A DNA stretch of 9,592 nucleotides from Deltaproteobacteria bacterium RIFOXYA12_FULL_61_11. GTDB lineage: Bacteria; Bdellovibrionota_F; JAHFAK01; YA12-FULL-61-11. Shown here piece after piece: positions 1,598-9,592 of the stretch. The notes under the pieces are model-generated. The model was not told the DNA's origin, searched no databases, and saw nothing but the letters and a program-made list of their open reading frames with translations. The stretch is taken from NCBI GenBank assembly GCA_001799195.1, contig MGSU01000202.1:1-9592 (forward strand). Reading direction: 5' to 3'. Position 1 is the stretch's first letter. Every line of letters begins with the position of its first letter. The position numbers and the translations under genes are program-made.

Positions 1598-1811
1598 ATC
1601 GGAACCCGACCCGCTGCTATTCGCTATTCCTGCTATTCGAGGCGACCTTGATTGAAAATTGAGATTCTTGGGGGCCAGTTCGAGAGTAGAGCGCTTGCGC
1701 GGTAGAAATGAAATCCGGGGTATGGAAGGGGGGTGTCAAGGGAAATGGGACCCATAACGTATGGCTACAAATGACCGTTGTTGTAAACGGCGCACTTATT
1801 GGAGGTGAACA
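1598..1811. other. Intergenic region with GCTATT cluster and a small dyad
   Basis: This 214-bp gap separates the integrase from the TTG-start gene. Besides the repeat cluster at 1614-1638 it contains a small inverted repeat, CCGTT-GTTGTA-AACGG (1775-1790), 21 bp before the start codon at 1812, which could be an operator. A clear promoter and terminator are not visible. A role as part of a replication origin is inference from the repeat cluster. Confidence 0.4.
1614..1638 (+). repeat. GCTATT iteron-like cluster A
   Basis: It consists of CTGCTATTC (1614-1622), GCTATTC (1623-1629) and CTGCTATTC (1630-1638). The whole 25-bp block recurs in inverted orientation at 6375-6399 with 23 of 25 bases identical, 4.7 kb away. 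Short direct repeats shared between two non-coding or weakly constrained sites of a replication-gene element suggest initiator binding sites. The function is inferred. Confidence 0.65.
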
Positions 1812-3128
1812 TTGAACCATTTGAAGGATCTCGAGGCGCTGGGTTTCGGCCCGCCTGATTGGGAAACCTGGCAAGAACGATTGAAAAGGCTCAACGATGG
1901 TTGCCTTGACCTGACCATGCAGGACCTCGCCCTGCTGCTCGCTGGATTGGAACCGGGGTGTGTGGTCAAGTGGCAATCGCTGCCGCTTGGTGTAGTTGCC
2001 CCTAGCGTGCTCGTGGAGGGAGCACCTACCCTGGTCGACCTCGTCTTCAATGTCGAGCTGCACGACAGCAATAACCCGCCGCGAAACGGATTACTTTCCT
2101 TCCTGCCGACCGATCCGACCCTGCCGACTGATCCGACCCTGCCGACTGATCCGACCCTGCCGACTGATCCGACCCTGCCGACTGATCCGACCCTGCCGAC
2201 CGATCCGACAATGGAAAATGAAATACAGGAAGTAGCGTTCTGTATGTCCGTGGCGCATCTTATCCAGGACAAACAAGCAAGAACAGGGGGAAAATCGCCT
2301 GCCCCTGCCCGAATATTGTTCCCATTGGTTGATCTTGCCCGGCGAAATCTCGATGCTCTGACCCGTGCCTTGCTGTCGGAATACCGCAACCATCCAGGTA
2401 TCGAGAGAAAAACATTCTTCTACAGCGAAGACGATCTTCGCACCTACCTGACCCGAGTTGCCGACCTTGAGAGCATGGTTGACTCGGTTGCAGCCGTGGC
2501 CGAAGGTTTGTTCCCTTTGCCGACTGTAGACCTATCGGCCCGGCCCACCTGGTCGAGGTGGCGCGGTCATGCCCTGAACGCTGCCGAACTGACCTTGCTG
2601 GTCCTGGGCTTCGATCCTGATGCCCCCAATATCAAGAGAATCTTGCTCGGCAATCCCGAAGGTACGGTCAATTCTTTGCTCTTTGACCTTCGACACCACC
2701 GAGCCGTGCAATATGATCGGCCACCAATCGGCCCGCTCAATGAGGAAGTACGCGACCGGCTTGCTCTGCTCGCCGACCTGCTCGAGTTGGTTGAAGGACG
2801 GTACCGAGCCCAAGGGTTGAAACTTGCCGAACCCAAGGTGGTTAAAGACCTCCTGACCGACTTGATAGAAACTCGACCGCTTGCGAGCACAACGGCCTTG
2901 ATAGCACTGCACGAGCTTTGCCCCGGCGCCCCCGACCCGAGGGAGGTGCGGAGTACCGAGCTTGCCCTTGCCCTGACCGTTGAGGCATACGAGCGCGCCA
3001 CGGCTCACCGTAAGGGTACATCGGTCCTGGTGTCGTCAATCATGAGAGCAGCACCCGGCCTGATAGACGAGGGAGCTTTGCGCAGAGCAATGAACCGTGC
3101 AAAGCATGCGCTAGAAAAGACTAGATAA
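1812..3128 (+). CDS. Unrecognised 438-residue element protein with six LPTDPT repeats
   Basis: I do not recognise this protein. The TTG start at 1812 is chosen because an excellent Shine-Dalgarno GGAGG (1801-1805) sits 6 bases upstream. Residues 1-97 form a Trp- and Leu-rich N-terminal part. Residues 98-133 are six perfect LPTDPT hexapeptides, probably a flexible linker. The rest is mostly helical in character, with no signal peptide or membrane segment. Two segments look alike: an N-terminal LTMQDLALLLAGLEPG and, around residues 247-271, WSRWRGHALNAAELTLLVLGFDPD. Both fit a loose W/L-rich pattern ending in G-x-[DE]-P that I associate with accessory-element proteins of unknown function; this is a weak resemblance. 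It ends 141 bp before the AlpA-like gene and has its own ribosome binding site, so it may be transcribed separately. A regulatory or replication-accessory role is possible but not shown. Confidence 0.8.
   Translation: MNHLKDLEALGFGPPDWETWQERLKRLNDGCLDLTMQDLALLLAGLEPGCVVKWQSLPLGVVAPSVLVEGAPTLVDLVFNVELHDSNNPPRNGLLSFLPTDPTLPTDPTLPTDPTLPTDPTLPTDPTLPTDPTMENEIQEVAFCMSVAHLIQDKQARTGGKSPAPARILFPLVDLARRNLDALTRALLSEYRNHPGIERKTFFYSEDDLRTYLTRVADLESMVDSVAAVAEGLFPLPTVDLSARPTWSRWRGHALNAAELTLLVLGFDPDAPNIKRILLGNPEGTVNSLLFDLRHHRAVQYDRPPIGPLNEEVRDRLALLADLLELVEGRYRAQGLKLAEPKVVKDLLTDLIETRPLASTTALIALHELCPGAPDPREVRSTELALALTVEAYERATAHRKGTSVLVSSIMRAAPGLIDEGALRRAMNRAKHALEKTR
2103..2210 (+). repeat. Six tandem 18-bp repeats, in frame
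   Basis: Units of CTGCCGACTGATCCGACC repeat six times without interruption; the first and last units carry C instead of T at the ninth base, and the last base of the array is A. Each unit encodes L-P-T-D-P-T. Within a unit there is a 9-bp sub-period sharing CCGAC. Because the unit is 18 bp, gain or loss of copies keeps the reading frame. No spacers occur, so this is not CRISPR. Confidence 0.95.
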
Positions 3129-3269
3129 TTCATACAGGTTGCAAGGTTCAATTTTCGCTTATCTTTTTCCCCTCTAAACCAACATATAATGCAATAGGTA
3201 TATTGCAACGTACGGCTCAGCATGGTACAACTAGGACCAGGTTGGACCCAAACATAAAGGAGCACTAGT
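3129..3269. other. Intergenic regulatory region before the alpA-replication operon
   Basis: The first part (3150-3180) is T-rich without a clear hairpin, so no terminator is claimed for the preceding gene. The second part holds a consensus -10 box and the TGCAATA/TATTGCA palindrome. A ribosome binding site AAGGAG (3257-3262) lies 7 bases before the ATG at 3270. Confidence 0.55.
3185..3207 (+). promoter_or_regulatory. Putative alpA operon promoter with overlapping palindromic operator
   Basis: TATAAT at 3185-3190 is a perfect -10 hexamer, but no good -35 box is visible at 16-18 bp spacing. The perfect inverted repeat TGCAATA-GGTA-TATTGCA (3190-3207) starts on the last base of that -10 box and covers the expected transcription start. 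A protein bound there would block transcription. The same half-site forms a second palindrome at 8412-8434 near attR. AlpA-like autoregulation is inferred. Confidence 0.55.
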
Positions 3270-3527
3270 ATGAGCACGTCGACACCCTCCCTTCTTCGCC
3301 TGCGGCAAGTGTTGGAGCGCACCGGCTTGAGCAGATCCTGTCTGTACGACAAAGTACAGCACGACCTTTCCCCGCAACCCTGCCGCATCAGCGAGCGCGC
3401 TTCTGCATGGTCTTCTGATGAGGTAGACCGTTGGATTGCAGAGCGTCTCGCTGAACGTGATACCAAGTTGGCCGAGAAACACGCCGCGAAGCCAACGCCT
3501 ACCCGTGGCAGGAGGGCCGGACAATGA
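3270..3527 (+). CDS. AlpA-like helix-turn-helix regulator / possible excisionase
   Basis: This 85-residue protein has the layout of AlpA/MerR-like winged-helix DNA-binding proteins of phage and P4-type elements. LLRLRQVLERTGLSRSCLYDKV (about residues 8-29) is the helix-turn-helix, followed by a short wing and WSSDEVDRWIAERLAER, the family's typical W-x-x-x-E-[IV]-x-x-W segment. The tail is basic (KPTPTRGRRAG). AlpA of CP4-57 activates excision by raising expression of the element's integrase, and relatives act as excisionases or repressors. The start has AAGGAG at 7 bases. The stop codon overlaps the next start (ATGA), so this is the first gene of the replication operon. Its likely target is the TGCAATA/TATTGCA palindrome in its own promoter and the copy by attR; that link is inference. 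Confidence 0.85.
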   Translation: MSTSTPSLLRLRQVLERTGLSRSCLYDKVQHDLSPQPCRISERASAWSSDEVDRWIAERLAERDTKLAEKHAAKPTPTRGRRAGQ

Positions 3528-3802
3528 AGACGCCAAGCATCAAAGAGCAGCTTTCAAAAGCGATTTCCTTTGGTGTGGTCCTTCCCCCCCTCATTGTCGC
3601 GAAATGCCCCGGTCTTCACTGCACGAGTGCGCTGCTAGCCGACGGATATACCGGCCACTGGGCTTGTCTTCGTTGCGGCATCCACGGTGACAGCCCTGTG
3701 TCATTGTTTCAGGCAGTTCACCGGGTCTCGCGTTCCGAAGCCGAGCTTGCGCTGGGGCTACCTGACAACAGCAATAATGGCACCGAGCGCGCTTTTACAT
3801 GA
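3524..3802 (+). CDS. Stand-alone CHC2-like primase zinc-finger protein
   Basis: A 92-residue protein that resembles the CHC2 zinc-binding domain found at the N-terminus of DnaG-type primases. Candidate ligands are C28 with H32 or C33 (KCPGLHC), then C48 and C51 in WACLRCGIHGD. The following segment GDSPVSLFQAVHRVSRSEAELAL matches the usual helix after the finger, G-D-x-[IV]-x-[FL]-V-x-x-x-x-x-[LV]-S-x-x-E-A. The first ligand spacing (x3 or x4) differs from the canonical C-x2-H, so the zinc site needs checking. It starts in an ATGA overlap with the AlpA-like gene and ends in an ATGA overlap with the Toprim gene. Translational coupling to a protein holding the catalytic Toprim domain suggests that the two act together in primer synthesis. 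A run of seven C occurs at 3584-3590. Confidence 0.7.
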   Translation: MKTPSIKEQLSKAISFGVVLPPLIVAKCPGLHCTSALLADGYTGHWACLRCGIHGDSPVSLFQAVHRVSRSEAELALGLPDNSNNGTERAFT

Positions 3803-6291
3803 TAGGGGGGGCCATGTATGAGAATCAAAAACCCGGCTGGGAAGCTCCCTCGCCGGGTCAATTACAAGCAAGGGAAGAATACAATGATTCTGAGGTGAAG
3901 GCAAAGTTCGCTGATCACTGCCGCGAACAAGGCCTTCAACTCAACGAGAGCGATATCATTGGCGACGGCAAAATTCATCGTTGTGGTACCGAGACACACC
4001 CCCAAGGAAAGAACGGCAGCTATCTTCTGCATCTTGATGGAGCTGTGCCCGCTGGCTGGTGTCGAGCCTGGGATAAGGGAGAGGGCGAAACCTGGCACCT
4101 TGACCTCGGCCGTCGGCTGACAGCCGCTGAGCAAGAGCACCTACGACGTCAACGTGAAATCGACACCTTGCAGCGCAAGCAAGAGACAGAGGCACGACAC
4201 AAAGAAGCCGCTGATAGAGCGAAAGTTCTATGGGGTAAAGCCCGCAATGCTACGGCAGAGCATCCTTACTTGCAACGGAAAGGCATTCTTCCTTACGACA
4301 CAAAGACCTGTGATGATGGGGCGTTGCTTGTTCCCTTGTACGGTTTTGATGATGATAAGAATGCTGTCCTGGTGAACCTACAGCGCATTTTTCCGAACGG
4401 GGACAAGCGCTTCCTTCCCGGCGGCAAGATCAAGGGAGTCTTCTGGTTCAATGAGGATCTAACCGATGCCTCGCGCATCGTTGTTTGCGAGGGTTTCGCC
4501 ACTGCCGCAAGCATCGCCGAGGCTACAGGCTACCAAGTATTCGCCGCAATGTCGTGCCATAACCTGCGCACCGTCGCGGAGGTGGTCAAGAATGCTTGGC
4601 CGAATAAGACGCTGATCATTGCTGCCGACAACGACCGGCGAACGAAAGGCAACCCCGGCCTGGGCTATGCCCAGGAGGCGGCCCGCGCAGTTGGGGCTCT
4701 GCTGGCCGTGCCTTCCTTTGAGGAAGATGAAGTCGGCAGCGACTTCAACGATCTTGCGACTTTGCGCGGCAAGGATGCGGTCAAGTCAGCAATCGAGACG
4801 GCGCCCCTTGTTCCAGAAGAACCCTGGGCCGAGTTGCACGACTTGACCGAGGACGAGAAACCTTGGCCATACCCCGTCGATGCGCTACCCGGCATTATCC
4901 GCGAGGCCGTTGAAGAGGTTGCGCGCTACTCGCAAGCACCCCTCGCAATGGTCGGAAGCTCTGCATTGGCGACCTGTGCGGCTGCCAGTCAGCACCTTGT
5001 TGACGTTGAACGTGCTCCCATGTTGCGCGGACCCGTGAGCTTGTACTTCCTGACCATTGCCGAAAGCGGGGAGAGGAAAAGCACCGTTGATGGATACTTT
5101 TCTCAACCTATCCGCCGATACGAAGCGTTGGAGGCTGAGCGGAACCGTGGAACGATGCTTGATTACAAAGCCCGAGAGGCTTCCTGGCAGGAGCAGAAAA
5201 GGGCAATCCTTGAACGGTTGCGAATGGCGCGTAGGAAAAGCGACTTCGGCAAGGTCAAGAGTGAAGAAGCAGACCTTCAAGCCCACGAGGCCAACGAGCC
5301 CGAGCGGCCCCGCGTACCCCGGCTGCTCATAACCGAAGAGTCATCGGAGAATCTCGGTTGGATATTGGCGCGCGACTGGCCTTCTATGGCCCTATTGTGC
5401 GCCGAAGGAGGCCTGGTACTAGGGGGCCACGCAATGCAGCGAGATCAGGTTACGCGAAATATCTCCATGTACGACGCACTATGGTCCGGCGAATCGATCC
5501 ACGTTGGGCGTCGAACGAGCGAAAGCTATACCATCGAAGGGGCGCGTCTATCCGTTCATCTTCAAGTTCAACCTGGTGTCTGGCAGCGCTTCCTTGAGCA
5601 AAGCGGCGACCTGGCCCGAAAGACCGGCATGCTTGCGAGGTTCCTGGTGAGCCAGCCCGCTTCAACCATTGGTTCGAGGCCCTACCGAGAGCCCCCGGTG
5701 TCATGGCCCGCATTGGAGCGATTGCAGAATCGTATTATCGAACTGCTCGACCAGAAGCCCAACCTCGACCGTGGTCGACTGCGGCCGGAGGTGCGCAAGC
5801 TCCAAGGCGAAGCTCTGCGCGAATGGCAAAAGGTTCACGATGTGTTCGAGTCTGATATGGCCAAGGGCAAGGACCTTGAGCACCTGCGAGATACCGGCAG
5901 CAAAGCGGCCGAACAGGTTGCCCGCCTAGCGGCTGTCCTGGCCCTTGTGGACAGATGCCCCGAGGTGGGAGTGGCCCACGTCCAGGGAGCGGCCCGCGTT
6001 GTCGCCTGGCATGGACATGAGGCTTCGAGGCTGTTTCGAGGGCGTACCCCCCTGACCGCCGCTGCCCTGGAGCTTGAAGGCTTCCTTATCCGACGTCGCC
6101 ACGACAAGGGCGAAACATCGTGCCGTATTACAACGGTTCAACAATGCGGCCCCGGTCGCCTGCGTGAAGGTTCCCGACTGCGCCCCGTGCTCGATCGACT
6201 CATTGCGGCAGGTAGAGTGCGCATTGTCGAGACACCCCACGGCAAGATGGTAGAGCTTCGCCCCGAGTTGGTTGATCATGTCGCTTCGTGA
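3799..6291 (+). CDS. Primase/helicase-like replication protein (Toprim plus DUF3987, YfjI-like)
   Basis: Probable replication protein of the element, 830 residues. Residues about 55-100 (GDGKIHR, NGSYLLHLDG, GWCRAWDKGEGETW) match the region before Toprim in P4-alpha/TraC-type primases. Residues about 225-320 are a Toprim domain, with E231 (VVCEGFATA), D277/D279 (AADND) and D315 (GSDFND) as probable metal ligands. Residues about 360-720 match DUF3987. A Walker A-like AESGERKST (421-429) has Arg before the Lys, as seen in this family, and LLITEES (509-515) may be Walker B. The C-terminal 100 residues look like a winged helix (RPVLDRLIAAGRVRIV). It probably primes and unwinds the excised circle. 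ATG at 3799 overlaps the previous stop; ATG at 3814 has a G-rich Shine-Dalgarno (AGGGGGGG) just upstream and may be the true start. Confidence 0.88.
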   Translation: MIGGAMYENQKPGWEAPSPGQLQAREEYNDSEVKAKFADHCREQGLQLNESDIIGDGKIHRCGTETHPQGKNGSYLLHLDGAVPAGWCRAWDKGEGETWHLDLGRRLTAAEQEHLRRQREIDTLQRKQETEARHKEAADRAKVLWGKARNATAEHPYLQRKGILPYDTKTCDDGALLVPLYGFDDDKNAVLVNLQRIFPNGDKRFLPGGKIKGVFWFNEDLTDASRIVVCEGFATAASIAEATGYQVFAAMSCHNLRTVAEVVKNAWPNKTLIIAADNDRRTKGNPGLGYAQEAARAVGALLAVPSFEEDEVGSDFNDLATLRGKDAVKSAIETAPLVPEEPWAELHDLTEDEKPWPYPVDALPGIIREAVEEVARYSQAPLAMVGSSALATCAAASQHLVDVERAPMLRGPVSLYFLTIAESGERKSTVDGYFSQPIRRYEALEAERNRGTMLDYKAREASWQEQKRAILERLRMARRKSDFGKVKSEEADLQAHEANEPERPRVPRLLITEESSENLGWILARDWPSMALLCAEGGLVLGGHAMQRDQVTRNISMYDALWSGESIHVGRRTSESYTIEGARLSVHLQVQPGVWQRFLEQSGDLARKTGMLARFLVSQPASTIGSRPYREPPVSWPALERLQNRIIELLDQKPNLDRGRLRPEVRKLQGEALREWQKVHDVFESDMAKGKDLEHLRDTGSKAAEQVARLAAVLALVDRCPEVGVAHVQGAARVVAWHGHEASRLFRGRTPLTAAALELEGFLIRRRHDKGETSCRITTVQQCGPGRLREGSRLRPVLDRLIAAGRVRIVETPHGKMVELRPELVDHVAS

Positions 6292-6685
6292 ACTTTACGA
6301 GAACTACGGGAAGCGAGTAGGCGCGGCTGCTATTTCTGCTATTCCTGCGGTTCCACAAGAAACGCATACCCTGGGAATAGCAGGAATAGCAAATAGCAAC
6401 GGGAGAGTACCCAGGGGCGACTTTACAACTACCAAGAATTATTATCCTTGTTCTTCGGCCACAGAACCGCTCGACCTGGAGGACCTCTATGAACATTTCC
6501 AAGAGAGGGTGGCCATAGTCGAGGAGGGAGGTCTATCCCGACAGGAAGCCGAACTTCTCGCGCTGAAGGAGCTGTTTCAAAGCCTTGGATACGAAAAATT
6601 CACGCATGACCAAGACGGCCTTGCGGTATCGCTCGCCCGAGCTGCTCGTCTGCTTCCCCCTCCGGGGGGTGATCATCCCTTCTGA
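6278..6685 (+). CDS. Small unrecognised ORF coupled to the replication gene
   Basis: A 135-residue protein starting at ATG 6278, overlapping the end of the replication gene by 14 bp; a TTG two codons upstream is a less likely start. The N-terminal 45 residues include AAISAIPAVPQ and GIAGIANSNG, which are simply the translation of the GCTATT repeats and their inverted copy, so this part is probably constrained by DNA function rather than protein function. Residues 65-100 (LDLEDLYEHFQERVAIVEEGGLSRQEAELLALKEL) are helical and resemble a motif often seen in short ORFs downstream of DUF3987 genes: E-R-x-A-I-x-E-x-x-G-[GL]-L-x-R-x-E-A-E. No enzymatic motif is visible. The end is Pro-rich (LLPPPGG). 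I cannot assign a function; a replication accessory is plausible from position. Confidence 0.7.
   Translation: MSLRELYENYGKRVGAAAISAIPAVPQETHTLGIAGIANSNGRVPRGDFTTTKNYYPCSSATEPLDLEDLYEHFQERVAIVEEGGLSRQEAELLALKELFQSLGYEKFTHDQDGLAVSLARAARLLPPPGGDHPF
6327..6399. repeat. GCTATT iteron-like cluster B, arranged as a long dyad
   Basis: Three direct 9-bp units, CTGCTATTT, CTGCTATTC and CTGCGGTTC, occupy 6327-6353. Inverted units GAATAGCAG (6375-6383), GAATAGCAA (6384-6392) and ATAGCAA (6393-6399) follow. Segment 6330-6345 pairs with 6374-6389 at 15 of 16 positions with a 28-base loop. Block 6375-6399 is the inverse of cluster A at 1614-1638 (23 of 25). The cluster lies within the coding sequence of the small ORF. 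A role as origin or initiator binding site is inferred. Confidence 0.65.
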
Positions 6686-6753
6686 AGGTCTGCTGGACCA
6701 ATCTTCCGACCCATGCCACACTGCACGCGGCAATGATGAAGAGGTGCGACGTC

Positions 6754-8229
6754 ATGACCGAGAATATTCGCTTGCCTCGAAAGAGGTTGTCGCTTGTACG
6801 ATTGGTCGCAATAGTGCTGCTTTCCAACCTGATAGTTCCGCAGGTTTGGACAGATACAAGTTCCGAATTGACGGTACCGACGACGGTGCCGGTCCCAACA
6901 CTGTCCAATGCCGACAAAGACCCCTCGACCGACACCGCACCACCAACAACAACGAGCACCGCGTCACTAGGGGCGTTTCAAGAAACGCTTGCGAAGGCAC
7001 AGAACAGTGACCCTACGGCCCAGTTCAACCTCGGGGTGATGTATTACGATGGTGAGGGTGTACCGCAGGATTATAAGAAAGCCTTCAAGTGGTTTACCAA
7101 AGCAGCGGAACAGGGACATGCAAATGCCCTAAGCTACCTCGGATGGATGTACGATAATGGCGAAGGAGTACCGCAGGACTACAAGAAAGCCATCGAGTGG
7201 TTCACAAAAGCAGCGGAACAGGGATATGCTGACTCTCAGAACAACCTTGGTCTGATGTACCTCCAAGGTAAAGAAATACCGCAGGACTACAAAAAAGCAG
7301 TTGAGTGGTTCACAAAAGCAGCGGAACAGGGGGCTGCTTCATCTCAATTCAGCCTTGGTCTGATGTATCTCGAAGGTAAAGGAGTACCGCAGGACTATAG
7401 GAAAGCCATCGAGTGGTTTACCAAAGCAGCGGAACAGGGACATGCTGACTCTCAGCACAACCTCGGGGTGATGTACGATAATGGCGAAGGAGTACCGCAG
7501 GACTATAGGAAAGCCATCGAGTGGTTCACAAAAGCAGCGGAACAGGGACTTGCATTAGCTCAACTCCAACTTGGTCTGATGTACCACCAAGGTAAAGAAA
7601 TACCGCAGGACTACAAAAAAGCAGTTGAGTGGTTCACAAAAGCAGCGGAACAGGGAGCTGTAGACGCCCAGTACAACCTCGGGGTGATGTACCATAAAGG
7701 CAAAGGAGTACCGCAGGACTATAGGAAAGCCATCGAGTGGTTCACAAAAGCAGCGGAACAGGGAGCTGTTAGTGCCCAGTTCAACCTCGGGGTGATGTAT
7801 GTGAAGGGCGAAGGTGTACCGCAGGACTATAGGAAAGCCATCGAGTGGTATTCCAAGGCTGCGGAACAGGGACATGATGCAGCTCAGTACTCCCTCGGGT
7901 TGATGTACAACAACGGTGAGGGTGTACCGCAGGATTTTAAGAAAGCTGTCGAGTGGTACGCCAAGGCTGCAGAACAAGGGGATATGGGAGCGCTGAATAA
8001 CCTCGGGGTGATGTATGTGAAGGGCGAAGGTGTACCGCAAGACTATCGACAAGCATATTTCTATTACAATCTCAGTGCTGCCCTATCGACAACGAATGAA
8101 GATAGAACTCTTGCCGAAAAAAATCGTGACGGTATTGCCCAGAAACTGACAAAAGAAGACCTAGCTGCAGAACAGAAGCGGGCTCGGGAATGGTTCGAAC
8201 GCTTCCAAGCGAAAGAGAAAAAACCCTAA
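6754..8229 (+). CDS. Secreted or periplasmic Sel1-repeat protein (cargo)
   Basis: It contains ten Sel1-type repeats of 36 residues (7009-8088), consensus A-x-x-Q-x-N-L-G-V-M-Y-x-x-G-x-G-V-P-Q-D-Y-K-K-A-x-E-W-F-T-K-A-A-E-Q-G. These are TPR-like alpha-alpha hairpins that stack into a superhelix for protein binding; the family has no enzymatic activity of its own. ATG 6754 is preferred because GAGG (6741-6744) lies 9 bases upstream; an ATG at 6733 has no good site. From 6754 the protein begins MTENIRLPRKRLSLVRLVAIVLLSNL, a basic n-region and hydrophobic core typical of a signal peptide. A Thr/Pro-rich linker then precedes the repeats. The C-terminal tail is charged (AEQKRAREWFERFQAKEKK). It is less GC-rich than its neighbours and not needed for element movement, so it is probably cargo. 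Its partner and benefit to the host are unknown. Confidence 0.88.
   Translation: MTENIRLPRKRLSLVRLVAIVLLSNLIVPQVWTDTSSELTVPTTVPVPTLSNADKDPSTDTAPPTTTSTASLGAFQETLAKAQNSDPTAQFNLGVMYYDGEGVPQDYKKAFKWFTKAAEQGHANALSYLGWMYDNGEGVPQDYKKAIEWFTKAAEQGYADSQNNLGLMYLQGKEIPQDYKKAVEWFTKAAEQGAASSQFSLGLMYLEGKGVPQDYRKAIEWFTKAAEQGHADSQHNLGVMYDNGEGVPQDYRKAIEWFTKAAEQGLALAQLQLGLMYHQGKEIPQDYKKAVEWFTKAAEQGAVDAQYNLGVMYHKGKGVPQDYRKAIEWFTKAAEQGAVSAQFNLGVMYVKGEGVPQDYRKAIEWYSKAAEQGHDAAQYSLGLMYNNGEGVPQDFKKAVEWYAKAAEQGDMGALNNLGVMYVKGEGVPQDYRQAYFYYNLSAALSTTNEDRTLAEKNRDGIAQKLTKEDLAAEQKRAREWFERFQAKEKKP
7009..8088 (+). repeat. Ten 108-bp repeats encoding Sel1 units
   Basis: Units of exactly 108 bp follow each other without gaps; the tenth is degenerate in its second half (RQAYFYYNLSAAL). 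Units 2-3-4 resemble units 5-6-7 more than their direct neighbours. For example, units 3 and 6 share GKEIPQDYKKAVEWFTKAAE with almost the same bases, 324 bp apart. This points to duplication of a three-unit block. Confidence 0.9.
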
Positions 8230-8520
8230 CCAATCAACAATCGCATCCTTTAACCGGCTGATTTATGTTGCTGCATTAGCACCGGCGCTGGAAATGCGCC
8301 TTAGGTGGTTCTTCGACTATCGGTATTCGATGACATCGGCAGGGAAAAAGAGAAATGCTTTCCTTTGCCGATTGGGATACTAGACACCCTCGGATACCTA
8401 GAGATTACAGCATATTGCAAAATTCCTGCAATATCCTAAACTTGGAAATTAGGGGCAATAAATGGGGGCAAAGTTATAGGAGTGAAAATATATCATGCTG
8501 GATTGCATGAGTATTTTCTT
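8230..8520. other. Element right end, non-coding
   Basis: This stretch of about 290 bp holds no convincing gene on the + strand. It contains an imperfect dyad around 8254-8285 and a GGCGC/GCGCC hairpin (8284-8300), neither followed by a T run. There is a further imperfect dyad CGGCA-x-GGAAA / TTTCC-xx-TGCCG (8337-8370). Candidate integrase arm words TTGGGAT (8372-8378) and CCTCGGATA (8388-8396) follow. Last come the TATTGCA palindrome (8412-8434) and a small palindrome TCATGC-TGGATT-GCATGA (8493-8510), 10 bp before attR. The density of dyads fits a recombination arm. Confidence 0.5.
8412..8434. promoter_or_regulatory. TATTGCA palindrome near attR (possible excisionase site)
   Basis: ATATTGCA (8412-8419), a 7-bp spacer and TGCAATAT (8427-8434) form a perfect 8-bp inverted repeat. 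The half-site is the same as in the palindrome at the alpA promoter (3190-3207), though the half-sites face the opposite way and the spacing differs. It lies 86 bp inside attR, where excisionase sites are commonly found. Binding by the AlpA-like protein is inferred. Confidence 0.5.
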
Positions 8521-8744
8521 TGATTATCCAGAAGGGCGAAGTCCACTAATTTGATATCATACTGCTTTTTGTACTTCGCCACGAGTTCCAGATACAGTTC
8601 TTTGAGGCTGTCGTTCTCGAGAAGGTACTGTTTGACGTGATTCGTGCAGTGCCAATACATATGCAGCAACGCGCCGTCCGAGCATTGGAGATGTCGTGGG
8701 ACTCTCGCATTCATGATCGCAGGGTATAGCAGTATTGGGGCCAC
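8493..8744 (-). pseudogene. N-terminal half of the disrupted Y1 transposase gene
   Basis: This minus-strand frame begins at GTG 8744 or, more likely, ATG 8714. It encodes a Y1-transposase N-terminus: ALLHMYWHCTNHVKQYLLEN, then SLKELYLELVAKYKKQYDIKLVDFAL, as in family members that read H-V-x-x-R-x-x-N-R, a long helix, then I-x-L-x-x-[YF]-x-L-M. At the point where M-x-N-H-x-H should follow, the sequence instead reads LDNQRKYSCNPA and stops at 8495-8493. The last residues come from element DNA right of the crossover. The native part is 8533-8744; the rest of the gene is at 174-1. The HUH motif is absent, so this fragment cannot be an active transposase. An intact copy would include the catalytic Tyr beyond the left edge. 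Confidence 0.8.
8521..8543 (+). other. attR: right copy of the imperfect 23-bp attachment repeat
   Basis: This is a direct repeat of 155-177 (18 of 23), with AGGGCGAA at 8533-8540. To its right lies N-terminal transposase coding sequence; to its left lies element DNA. The reading frame of the transposase has the same phase relative to the core in both copies (TTC codon at 174-172 and at 8540-8538). Confidence 0.75.
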
Positions 8745-8861: not shown

Positions 8862-8898
8862 CTTGCAAACAATAGCGTCATGCGCTAGTTTTTGCAAG
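8862..8898 (+). promoter_or_regulatory. Palindromic operator upstream of the AbiEi-type gene
   Basis: CTTGCAAACAATAGCG (8862-8877) and CGCTAGTTTTTGCAAG (8883-8898) form an inverted repeat with 14 of 16 positions matching and a 5-bp spacer TCATG. It ends 29 bp before the ATG at 8928. AbiEi antitoxins are known to bind inverted repeats in their promoter and repress the operon, so this is the likely autoregulatory operator. I cannot assign -35 and -10 boxes with confidence. Confidence 0.65.
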
Positions 8899-8927
8899 CG
8901 CGTTGCACAGTCGCGCAGGAGCATAGC

Positions 8928-9592
8928 ATGTCAGCAAAATCCGCCATGGCGCACTGGATCGAGCAGCTCCAGTCCAGGGGCCGCTACACCTTCACACGTG
9001 CCCAGGCGGAGTCCGACACCGAGCGTTCCTTCGTAGCGGCGCAGACCGCGCTGCGACGGCTGAAGCAGCAGGGTCGAGTAGTCTCGCCCCGGCGCGGGTT
9101 CTACGTGGTGGTCCCACCCGAGTATCGGGCCGCGGGTGCGCTACCGGCGAGCTGGTTCATCGACGACCTGATGCGGTACCTCGACCAGCCCTACTACGTC
9201 GGGCTCCTGAGCGCAGCCGCCATCCACGGCGCCGGGCATCAGCAGCCGATGGTGTTCCAGGTGGTGACCAGCAAGCCGACCCGCGAGATGCGCGCCGGCA
9301 AGGTGGCCATCCGGTTCACGATGAGCGGCCTGGTGGAGAGCTTGCCCGTGGTCGAGCAGCAGACCGAAACTGGGACCATGCGCGTCGCCGCTCCTGAGAC
9401 CTGCGCCTTCGACCTAGTTCGATATCCGGAGGCGGCCGGTCACCTGAGCAACGCGGCCACGGTGCTCGCCGAGCTGGCCGAGCGTCTCGACGCTCGCACA
9501 CTCGTGGACGTCGCGCCTCTCGTCCGGCTTCCAGACGTGCAGCGCCTCGGGTTCTTGCTCGACGCCGTCGGGCAGAGCGAGCTCTCTACGCC
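8928..9592 (+). CDS. abiEi: AbiEi-type antitoxin (type IV toxin-antitoxin), partial at right edge
   Basis: Open frame of 221 codons running off the window. ATG 8928 has AGGAG (8918-8922) close upstream. The first 60 residues form a winged helix-turn-helix (YTFTRAQAESDTERSFVAAQTALRRLKQQGRVVSPRRGFYVVVP), as in AbiEi/COG5340 proteins. The middle carries the family's hallmark segment (YYVGLLSAAAIHGAGHQQPMVFQVVTSKP, then R in IRF) and APETCAFDLVRYPEAAGHLSNAATVLAELAE, where family members read P-E-x-T-x-x-D-L. AbiEi represses its operon and counteracts the AbiEii nucleotidyltransferase toxin, whose gene would be expected just beyond the right edge. The gene lies outside the element, with GC-rich third positions. 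It reads divergently from the broken transposase gene. Confidence 0.88.
   Translation, partial: MSAKSAMAHWIEQLQSRGRYTFTRAQAESDTERSFVAAQTALRRLKQQGRVVSPRRGFYVVVPPEYRAAGALPASWFIDDLMRYLDQPYYVGLLSAAAIHGAGHQQPMVFQVVTSKPTREMRAGKVAIRFTMSGLVESLPVVEQQTETGTMRVAAPETCAFDLVRYPEAAGHLSNAATVLAELAERLDARTLVDVAPLVRLPDVQRLGFLLDAVGQSELST

Follow-up and report, generated by a model that had tools for sequence, protein, structure and literature searches.

The window, that is the whole stretch of 9,592 nucleotides that was analysed, carries a series of genes on its forward strand. These encode, in order, a P4-type tyrosine integrase (341–1597, with Arm-DNA-bind_3 and Phage_integrase domains), a 438-residue protein to which no family was assigned (1812–3128), an AlpA-type regulator/excisionase (3270–3527), a 92-residue protein (3524–3802), a Toprim-DUF3987 primase-helicase of 830 residues (3799–6291) and a small ORF (6281–6685) without a family match, the 5' part of which overlaps the repeat array described below. 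A cargo gene for a protein with about ten Sel1 repeats (6733–8229, DNA period 108 bp) follows. The primase-helicase contains Toprim_3 (residues 227–326), DUF3987 (residues 379–746) and a C-terminal winged-helix region (residues 729–830, encoded at 5983–6288 on the forward strand). The 92-residue protein shows a CxxxxC...CxxC pattern and, judged from this pattern, is possibly a detached primase zinc ribbon. Within the gene for the 438-residue protein, an 18-bp tandem repeat at 2102–2217 encodes a repeated PTDPTL.

The core AGGGCGAA occurs as a direct repeat at 167–174 (left att) and at 8533–8540, the other element end (right att), which suggests that an element of about 8.4 kb lies inside an IS200-like transposase gene. 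Pieces of this transposase gene flank the element at 1–174 and 8533–8744 (reverse strand); when joined, the flanks match Y1_Tnp (PF01797) with E=3.9e-8, and no match is obtained with the right-hand piece by itself. Other repeats are found near the element ends, in zones at 304–345 and 8440–8482. TGGGGGCAA occurs directly repeated at 304 and 8463, and ATTTATTGCCC at 329 with an inverted copy at 8453; both are probably arm-type sites of the integrase. Neither Rfam families nor tRNAs were found in the window. Outside the element, an AbiEi-type antitoxin/transcriptional regulator at 8892–9590 is truncated where the contig ends. The genome, a fragmented assembly which is approximately 87% complete, yielded no second DUF3987 gene of the window's kind.

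The element contains two clusters of GCTATT repeats. The earlier note had reported that a 25-bp block at 1614–1638 recurs inverted at 6375–6399 with 23/25 identity, and this was borne out; taken over 29 nt, 1610–1638 against the inverse of 6375–6403, the identity is 93% (27/29). The inverted match has a score of 21, where 60 shuffles reached no more than 18. The right cluster begins 37 nt past the stop codon of the Toprim-DUF3987 gene, so that the iterons lie immediately 3' of the helicase gene. Its forward arm (6328–6352, forward strand) has units at 6328 (TGCTATT), 6337 (TGCTATT) and 6346 (TGCGGTT) with a period of 9 bp. The three further direct units described previously are thus present, the third, which is the inner one, being degenerate. 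A gap of 23 nt (6353–6375) that is not AT-rich separates this arm from a reverse arm (6376–6398, reverse strand) with AATAGCA at 6376, 6385 and 6392, a spacing of 9 then 7. The right cluster alone therefore has the full layout of three forward units, a 23-nt gap and three reverse units. The left cluster is a single arm (1615–1637, forward strand) of TGCTATT, CGCTATT and TGCTATT, with a spacing of 7 then 9, situated 18 nt 3' of the integrase stop codon; it nearly repeats, in inverted orientation, the reverse arm at 6376. The description of the two clusters as inversely oriented therefore holds for the left cluster against the right reverse arm, including the unusual 7-bp outer spacing, but not for the right cluster overall as this holds both orientations. 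The repeats exceed chance expectation. GCTATT occurs 9 times in the window where 3.2 occurrences are expected, and 8 of the 9 fall inside the two clusters. Five occur in 90 nt, against no more than three in any 90-nt stretch of 1,500 dinucleotide-preserving shuffles. With up to 2 mismatches allowed, TGCTATTNNTGCTATT gives 5 matches in the window against 0.04 expected.

The same repeats were then looked for beside DUF3987 genes in related elements. A DNA-only pattern scan of genome_contigs for three TGCTATT units gave at least 119 loci, and about 16 of the loci listed carry a DUF3987 relative, mostly adjoining the repeat. In 18 genomes from such loci the true pattern made 23 forward and 26 reverse matches against 1 for the reversed control, though, since these genomes had been selected because they contain the pattern, information comes only from the contrast in the additional matches. 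Protein and alignment searches then collected loci irrespective of repeat type. A permissive scan, anchored on T, G, C and A at unit positions 1, 2, 3 and 5 with positions 4, 6 and 7 left free, found a two-arm array no more than 320 nt downstream in 72 of 92 non-redundant DUF3987 genes with a C-terminus, a count which includes a handful of doubtful arrays. A stricter cut demanding a clear iteron type is passed by 66 of the 92. As background, 4 of 723 intervals elsewhere in the same loci pass, a figure obtained with an earlier version of the scan. The association of the repeats with DUF3987 genes is thus found in relatives.

Most relatives belong to Burkholderiales and related Pseudomonadota. 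None of those found is close to the window element, and the comparison is made at about 40% protein identity; the class and phylum sets around the window's genome comprised one other genome. The single-protein scan of genome_contigs yielded no relatives because its peptide patterns are poorly conserved. An alignment search of viral_contigs gave mostly Toprim-only proteins, and from it L301 alone was used further. Strong matches were present in 12 of 240 alphaproteobacterial genomes, few of them extending to the C-terminal part of the profile. The scan found no clear array at the E. coli YfjI locus (L382), and at a Legionella locus (L381) scattered GCTAC repeats but no two-arm array.

The iteron word differs among elements, with TGCTATT, TGCTAC, TGCGAC and TGCTAA all being found, and the two arms of an array tend to carry the same word. 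In loci found by protein search only, the arm types agree in 47 of 58, against a mean of 14.5 and a maximum of 27 when shuffled, and unit positions 4, 6 and 7 agree between arms far beyond shuffles. The gap lengths in 15 cluster representatives are 12, 12, 21, 23 (five times), 24, 26, 32, 32, 33, 33 and 41 nt, the 23 nt of the window being the commonest. These lengths are periodic (Rayleigh p of about 2e-4 at 10.5 bp, similar for periods of 9–11, in this small sample), and this would fit two complexes sitting on one face of the helix. The AT content of the gap is 38% on average across the relatives, like that of the flanks.

The differences in iteron word can be compared with differences in the protein. 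When iteron type was set against every alignment column, column 754 was strongest and 759 next, with 755 and 757 also among the top; all four fall C-terminal to DUF3987. Arginine or lysine at column 754 is found in 27 of 33 proteins whose iterons have C at position 6 and in 0 of 33 others. Taken over 485 columns, 754 ranks first for position 6, and 759, 758 and 755 hold ranks 1–3 for position 4. The iteron type has changed at least 27 times on the helicase-core tree. With the best tree and all branches, independent pairs linking R/K at 754 to C at position 6 stand at 11:0 (p=0.001), and those linking G at position 4 to columns 759, 758 and 755 at 10:0 for each column (p=0.002). When strongly supported branches only are used, 5–6 pairs remain; where these differ, almost all point the same way (p=0.06, Treekit sign test). 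Among near-identical sequences, VPTTRIYQYGP-like motifs accompany TGCTATT and VPTKRIYQYGP accompanies TGCTACT. The resulting rule was applied to nine array loci from a wider search, outside the 66-locus training set; as some of these had been seen in earlier printouts they are held out rather than blind. Position 4 was predicted correctly in 9 of 9; for position 6 the rule was right in 7 of 8, and one further locus gave no call. The single miss has N at column 754, a residue that is ambiguous within the training set too. In the window protein the putative specificity residues T778, T779, Q782 and C783 correspond to columns 754, 755, 758 and 759. T778 and Q782 suit the TGCTATT type; the cysteine of C783 is not what most proteins of that type have there.

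The C-terminal 102 residues of the window protein are predicted to form a winged helix (mean pLDDT 82). Fold matches include MarR-type regulators, the Mcm4 winged helix and Z-alpha among others; the fold is a common one. In a shallow model built from 9 sequences, the putative specificity columns fall in a short helix that precedes the canonical recognition helix, an unusual location. At full length (pLDDT 74) the model has hits to the DnaG primase core and to MCM helicases, all at low TM-scores, and no PDB chain matches the family profile by sequence.

Taken together, these results suggest that 6328–6398 is the core of a replication origin bound by the DUF3987 primase-helicase, with the left cluster as a spare, non-essential arm. 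We put the probability of this reading at roughly 0.8, judged from sequence comparison. Of the two candidate readers of the repeats named in the earlier note, the Toprim-DUF3987 protein is favoured by the conserved site 3' of its gene, the co-changing arms and the covariation with its winged helix, while the 438-residue protein loses ground since no relative of it was found at any array-bearing locus. The Toprim-DUF3987 protein would bind every 7-bp iteron (TGCxAyy) via its C-terminal winged helix so that copies of it align along each arm, probably as one helicase ring per arm. The two rings would face one another over the gap, whose length classes lie about one helical turn apart. The protein would then open the DNA, unwind it and prime synthesis with its DnaG-like Toprim part.

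The passage from arm binding and helicase loading to the start of replication is proposed by analogy with SaPI Rep, and the best reading of the layout at 6328–6398 is that it would be built like SaPI/PICI origins. According to statements in PMC7581432, which cites Ubeda et al. 2007, the C-terminal domain of SaPI Rep recognises iterons directly downstream of its gene, and binding by two Rep hexamers is reported. In both the SaPI and window systems the iterons directly follow the initiator-helicase gene. However, SaPI Rep is of the DUF927 or D5-like families where the window protein is DUF3987, and the SaPI primase is AEP-type where that of the window is Toprim. In Gram-negative PICIs, two iteron sets lie 3' of the primase gene, and for one such element the site was shown to be necessary for plasmid maintenance (PMC6092414). 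The window likewise has two sets (6328–6352 and 6376–6398) but, where an origin of SaPI/PICI type is expected to have an AT-rich region between the sets, the gap in relatives has an average AT content of 0.38 and that of the window is not AT-rich either. The order of integrase, regulator, primase/helicase and origin is shared with EcCICFT073, which has TCTACC repeats in both orientations, partly with 9-bp spacing. It differs in its iteron word, in a published layout with an AT-rich middle and in its primase, which has D5_N/DUF5906/Pox_D5 rather than DUF3987 and Toprim_3 and gave no significant similarity to the window protein. Vibrio PICMIs have a minimal set of int, alpA and primase, with DUF3987 among the primase profiles used, and loss of prim lowers their copy number; complete PICMIs come from Vibrio genomes only, PICMI115 being located at fis (PMC10803314). 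The window element has the PICMI combination of int, alpA and a DUF3987 or DUF5906 primase but it lies in an IS200-like transposase gene rather than at fis.

The alpha protein of phage P4 is a primase-helicase with iterons in two places, ori and crr. The earlier note had raised by analogy a possible two-part origin made of the clusters, 4.7 kb apart; on this reading both would be required together. The window resembles P4 in having a second iteron site, though such a site is not conserved in relatives, and psu, sid and delta of P4 were not recognised among the main window proteins (Pfam, with PHROGs and NCBIfam for part of the ORFs). A two-part origin would account for the left arm matching the inverted reverse arm at 27 of 29 positions, odd spacing included, and arms additional to the main array are indeed found elsewhere. 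In L236 the reverse arm at +98 from the primase stop is exactly repeated as a single inverted arm at +617, about 520 nt further on. L065, L151 and L075 have extra arms too, L292 and L300 have a second full array about 2–2.5 kb away, and L288 and L289 have single arms adjacent to int, that in L289 being followed by an AlpA-like gene and a toxin-antitoxin-like pair. However, the right cluster by itself holds the complete conserved layout, which relatives carry alone, and an arm between int and primase is found in 0 of 11 relatives with both genes on one piece, a count which depends on the scan used and could miss a degenerate arm. A two-part origin is therefore unlikely. In contrast to P4, the main putative origin of the window has all its parts at one site, and the second cluster amounts to a single optional arm.

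The left arm at 1615–1637 is thus an optional extra copy of half of the right-cluster site, and the same DUF3987 protein should bind it too. It may serve in copy control or in regulation of the downstream operon, or it may be a relic; titration or regulation would be our guess.

It is also conceivable, but quite improbable, that the array is a repressor/operator site through which the DUF3987 protein controls the downstream gene and that it is no origin at all. The array does lie where the downstream small ORF begins, and the left arm does lie upstream of the gene for the 438-residue protein. Against this, neither a promoter-like nor a terminator-like site was seen around the left arm, some arrays occur without a small ORF, and the symmetric two-arm plan 3' of a primase-helicase gene matches known PICI-type origins.

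That the right cluster merely encodes the Ala-Ile/Val-rich start of the small ORF is very improbable. An ORF of 30–265 codons does span the array at 61 of the 66 loci, mostly in one and the same frame, and some coding constraint is possible. However, five arrays (L091, L387, L224, L075 and L403) have no such ORF, and several of the other ORFs are short. The peptides encoded by the two arms differ, yet the arms change in concert as reverse complements, which indicates a constraint on the DNA. In addition, the left arm of the window lies between int and the gene for the 438-residue protein, and the iteron type follows the winged helix of another gene.

Still less can be said for the clusters as integrase arm-type or excisionase (AlpA) sites. 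The left cluster adjoins int and the integrase has an arm-binding domain, but the repeats TGGGGGCAA and ATTTATTGCCC at both element ends differ in kind from the iterons and fit arm sites better, and the main cluster is set 2 kb inwards from the right end and accompanies DUF3987. An RNA hairpin or DNA cruciform (attenuator, terminator or processing site) formed by the arms, which are after all inverted repeats 3' of a gene, is barely credible given that the linkers within arms do not covary (pairing between arms 53% against 49%, p=0.12, no significant excess), that there is no Rfam match in the window and that the iterons covary with a DNA-binding domain.

A further possibility can be put forward tentatively. 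The DUF3987 winged helix may be modular, with a simple residue-to-base code at its unusual helix, such that a few substitutions repeatedly switch the iteron type and co-resident elements avoid cross-replication; the extra arm in the window might then be a control site titrating the same protein. DUF3987 is labelled as of unknown function in Pfam though small integrative elements of Pseudomonadota commonly carry it, and our literature search found no paper that mentions DUF3987 along with 'iteron'. Genes of this family would gain a candidate origin recognisable by eye, a putative DNA-reading domain and a proposed base-by-base specificity rule. If this is correct, origins and possible incompatibility groups could be predicted from sequence for many unannotated elements, and the PICI-type origin plan would extend to another helicase family.

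Some minor observations were made on individual loci. A Magnetococcales contig (L291, 8210–8500) has three TGCTATT arms without a nearby DUF3987 gene. In L282, single arms of TGCTAA and TGCGAC type lie about 1509 and 509 nt before the primase end, within the span of a frame-broken primase gene. L286, when oriented for the primase, has two successive arrays 3' of one primase gene at 9070–9300; the first is TGCTAA-type and the second, which combines a TGCGAC forward arm with a TGCTAC reverse arm, is on the evidence of these words a putative mixed or recombined origin.
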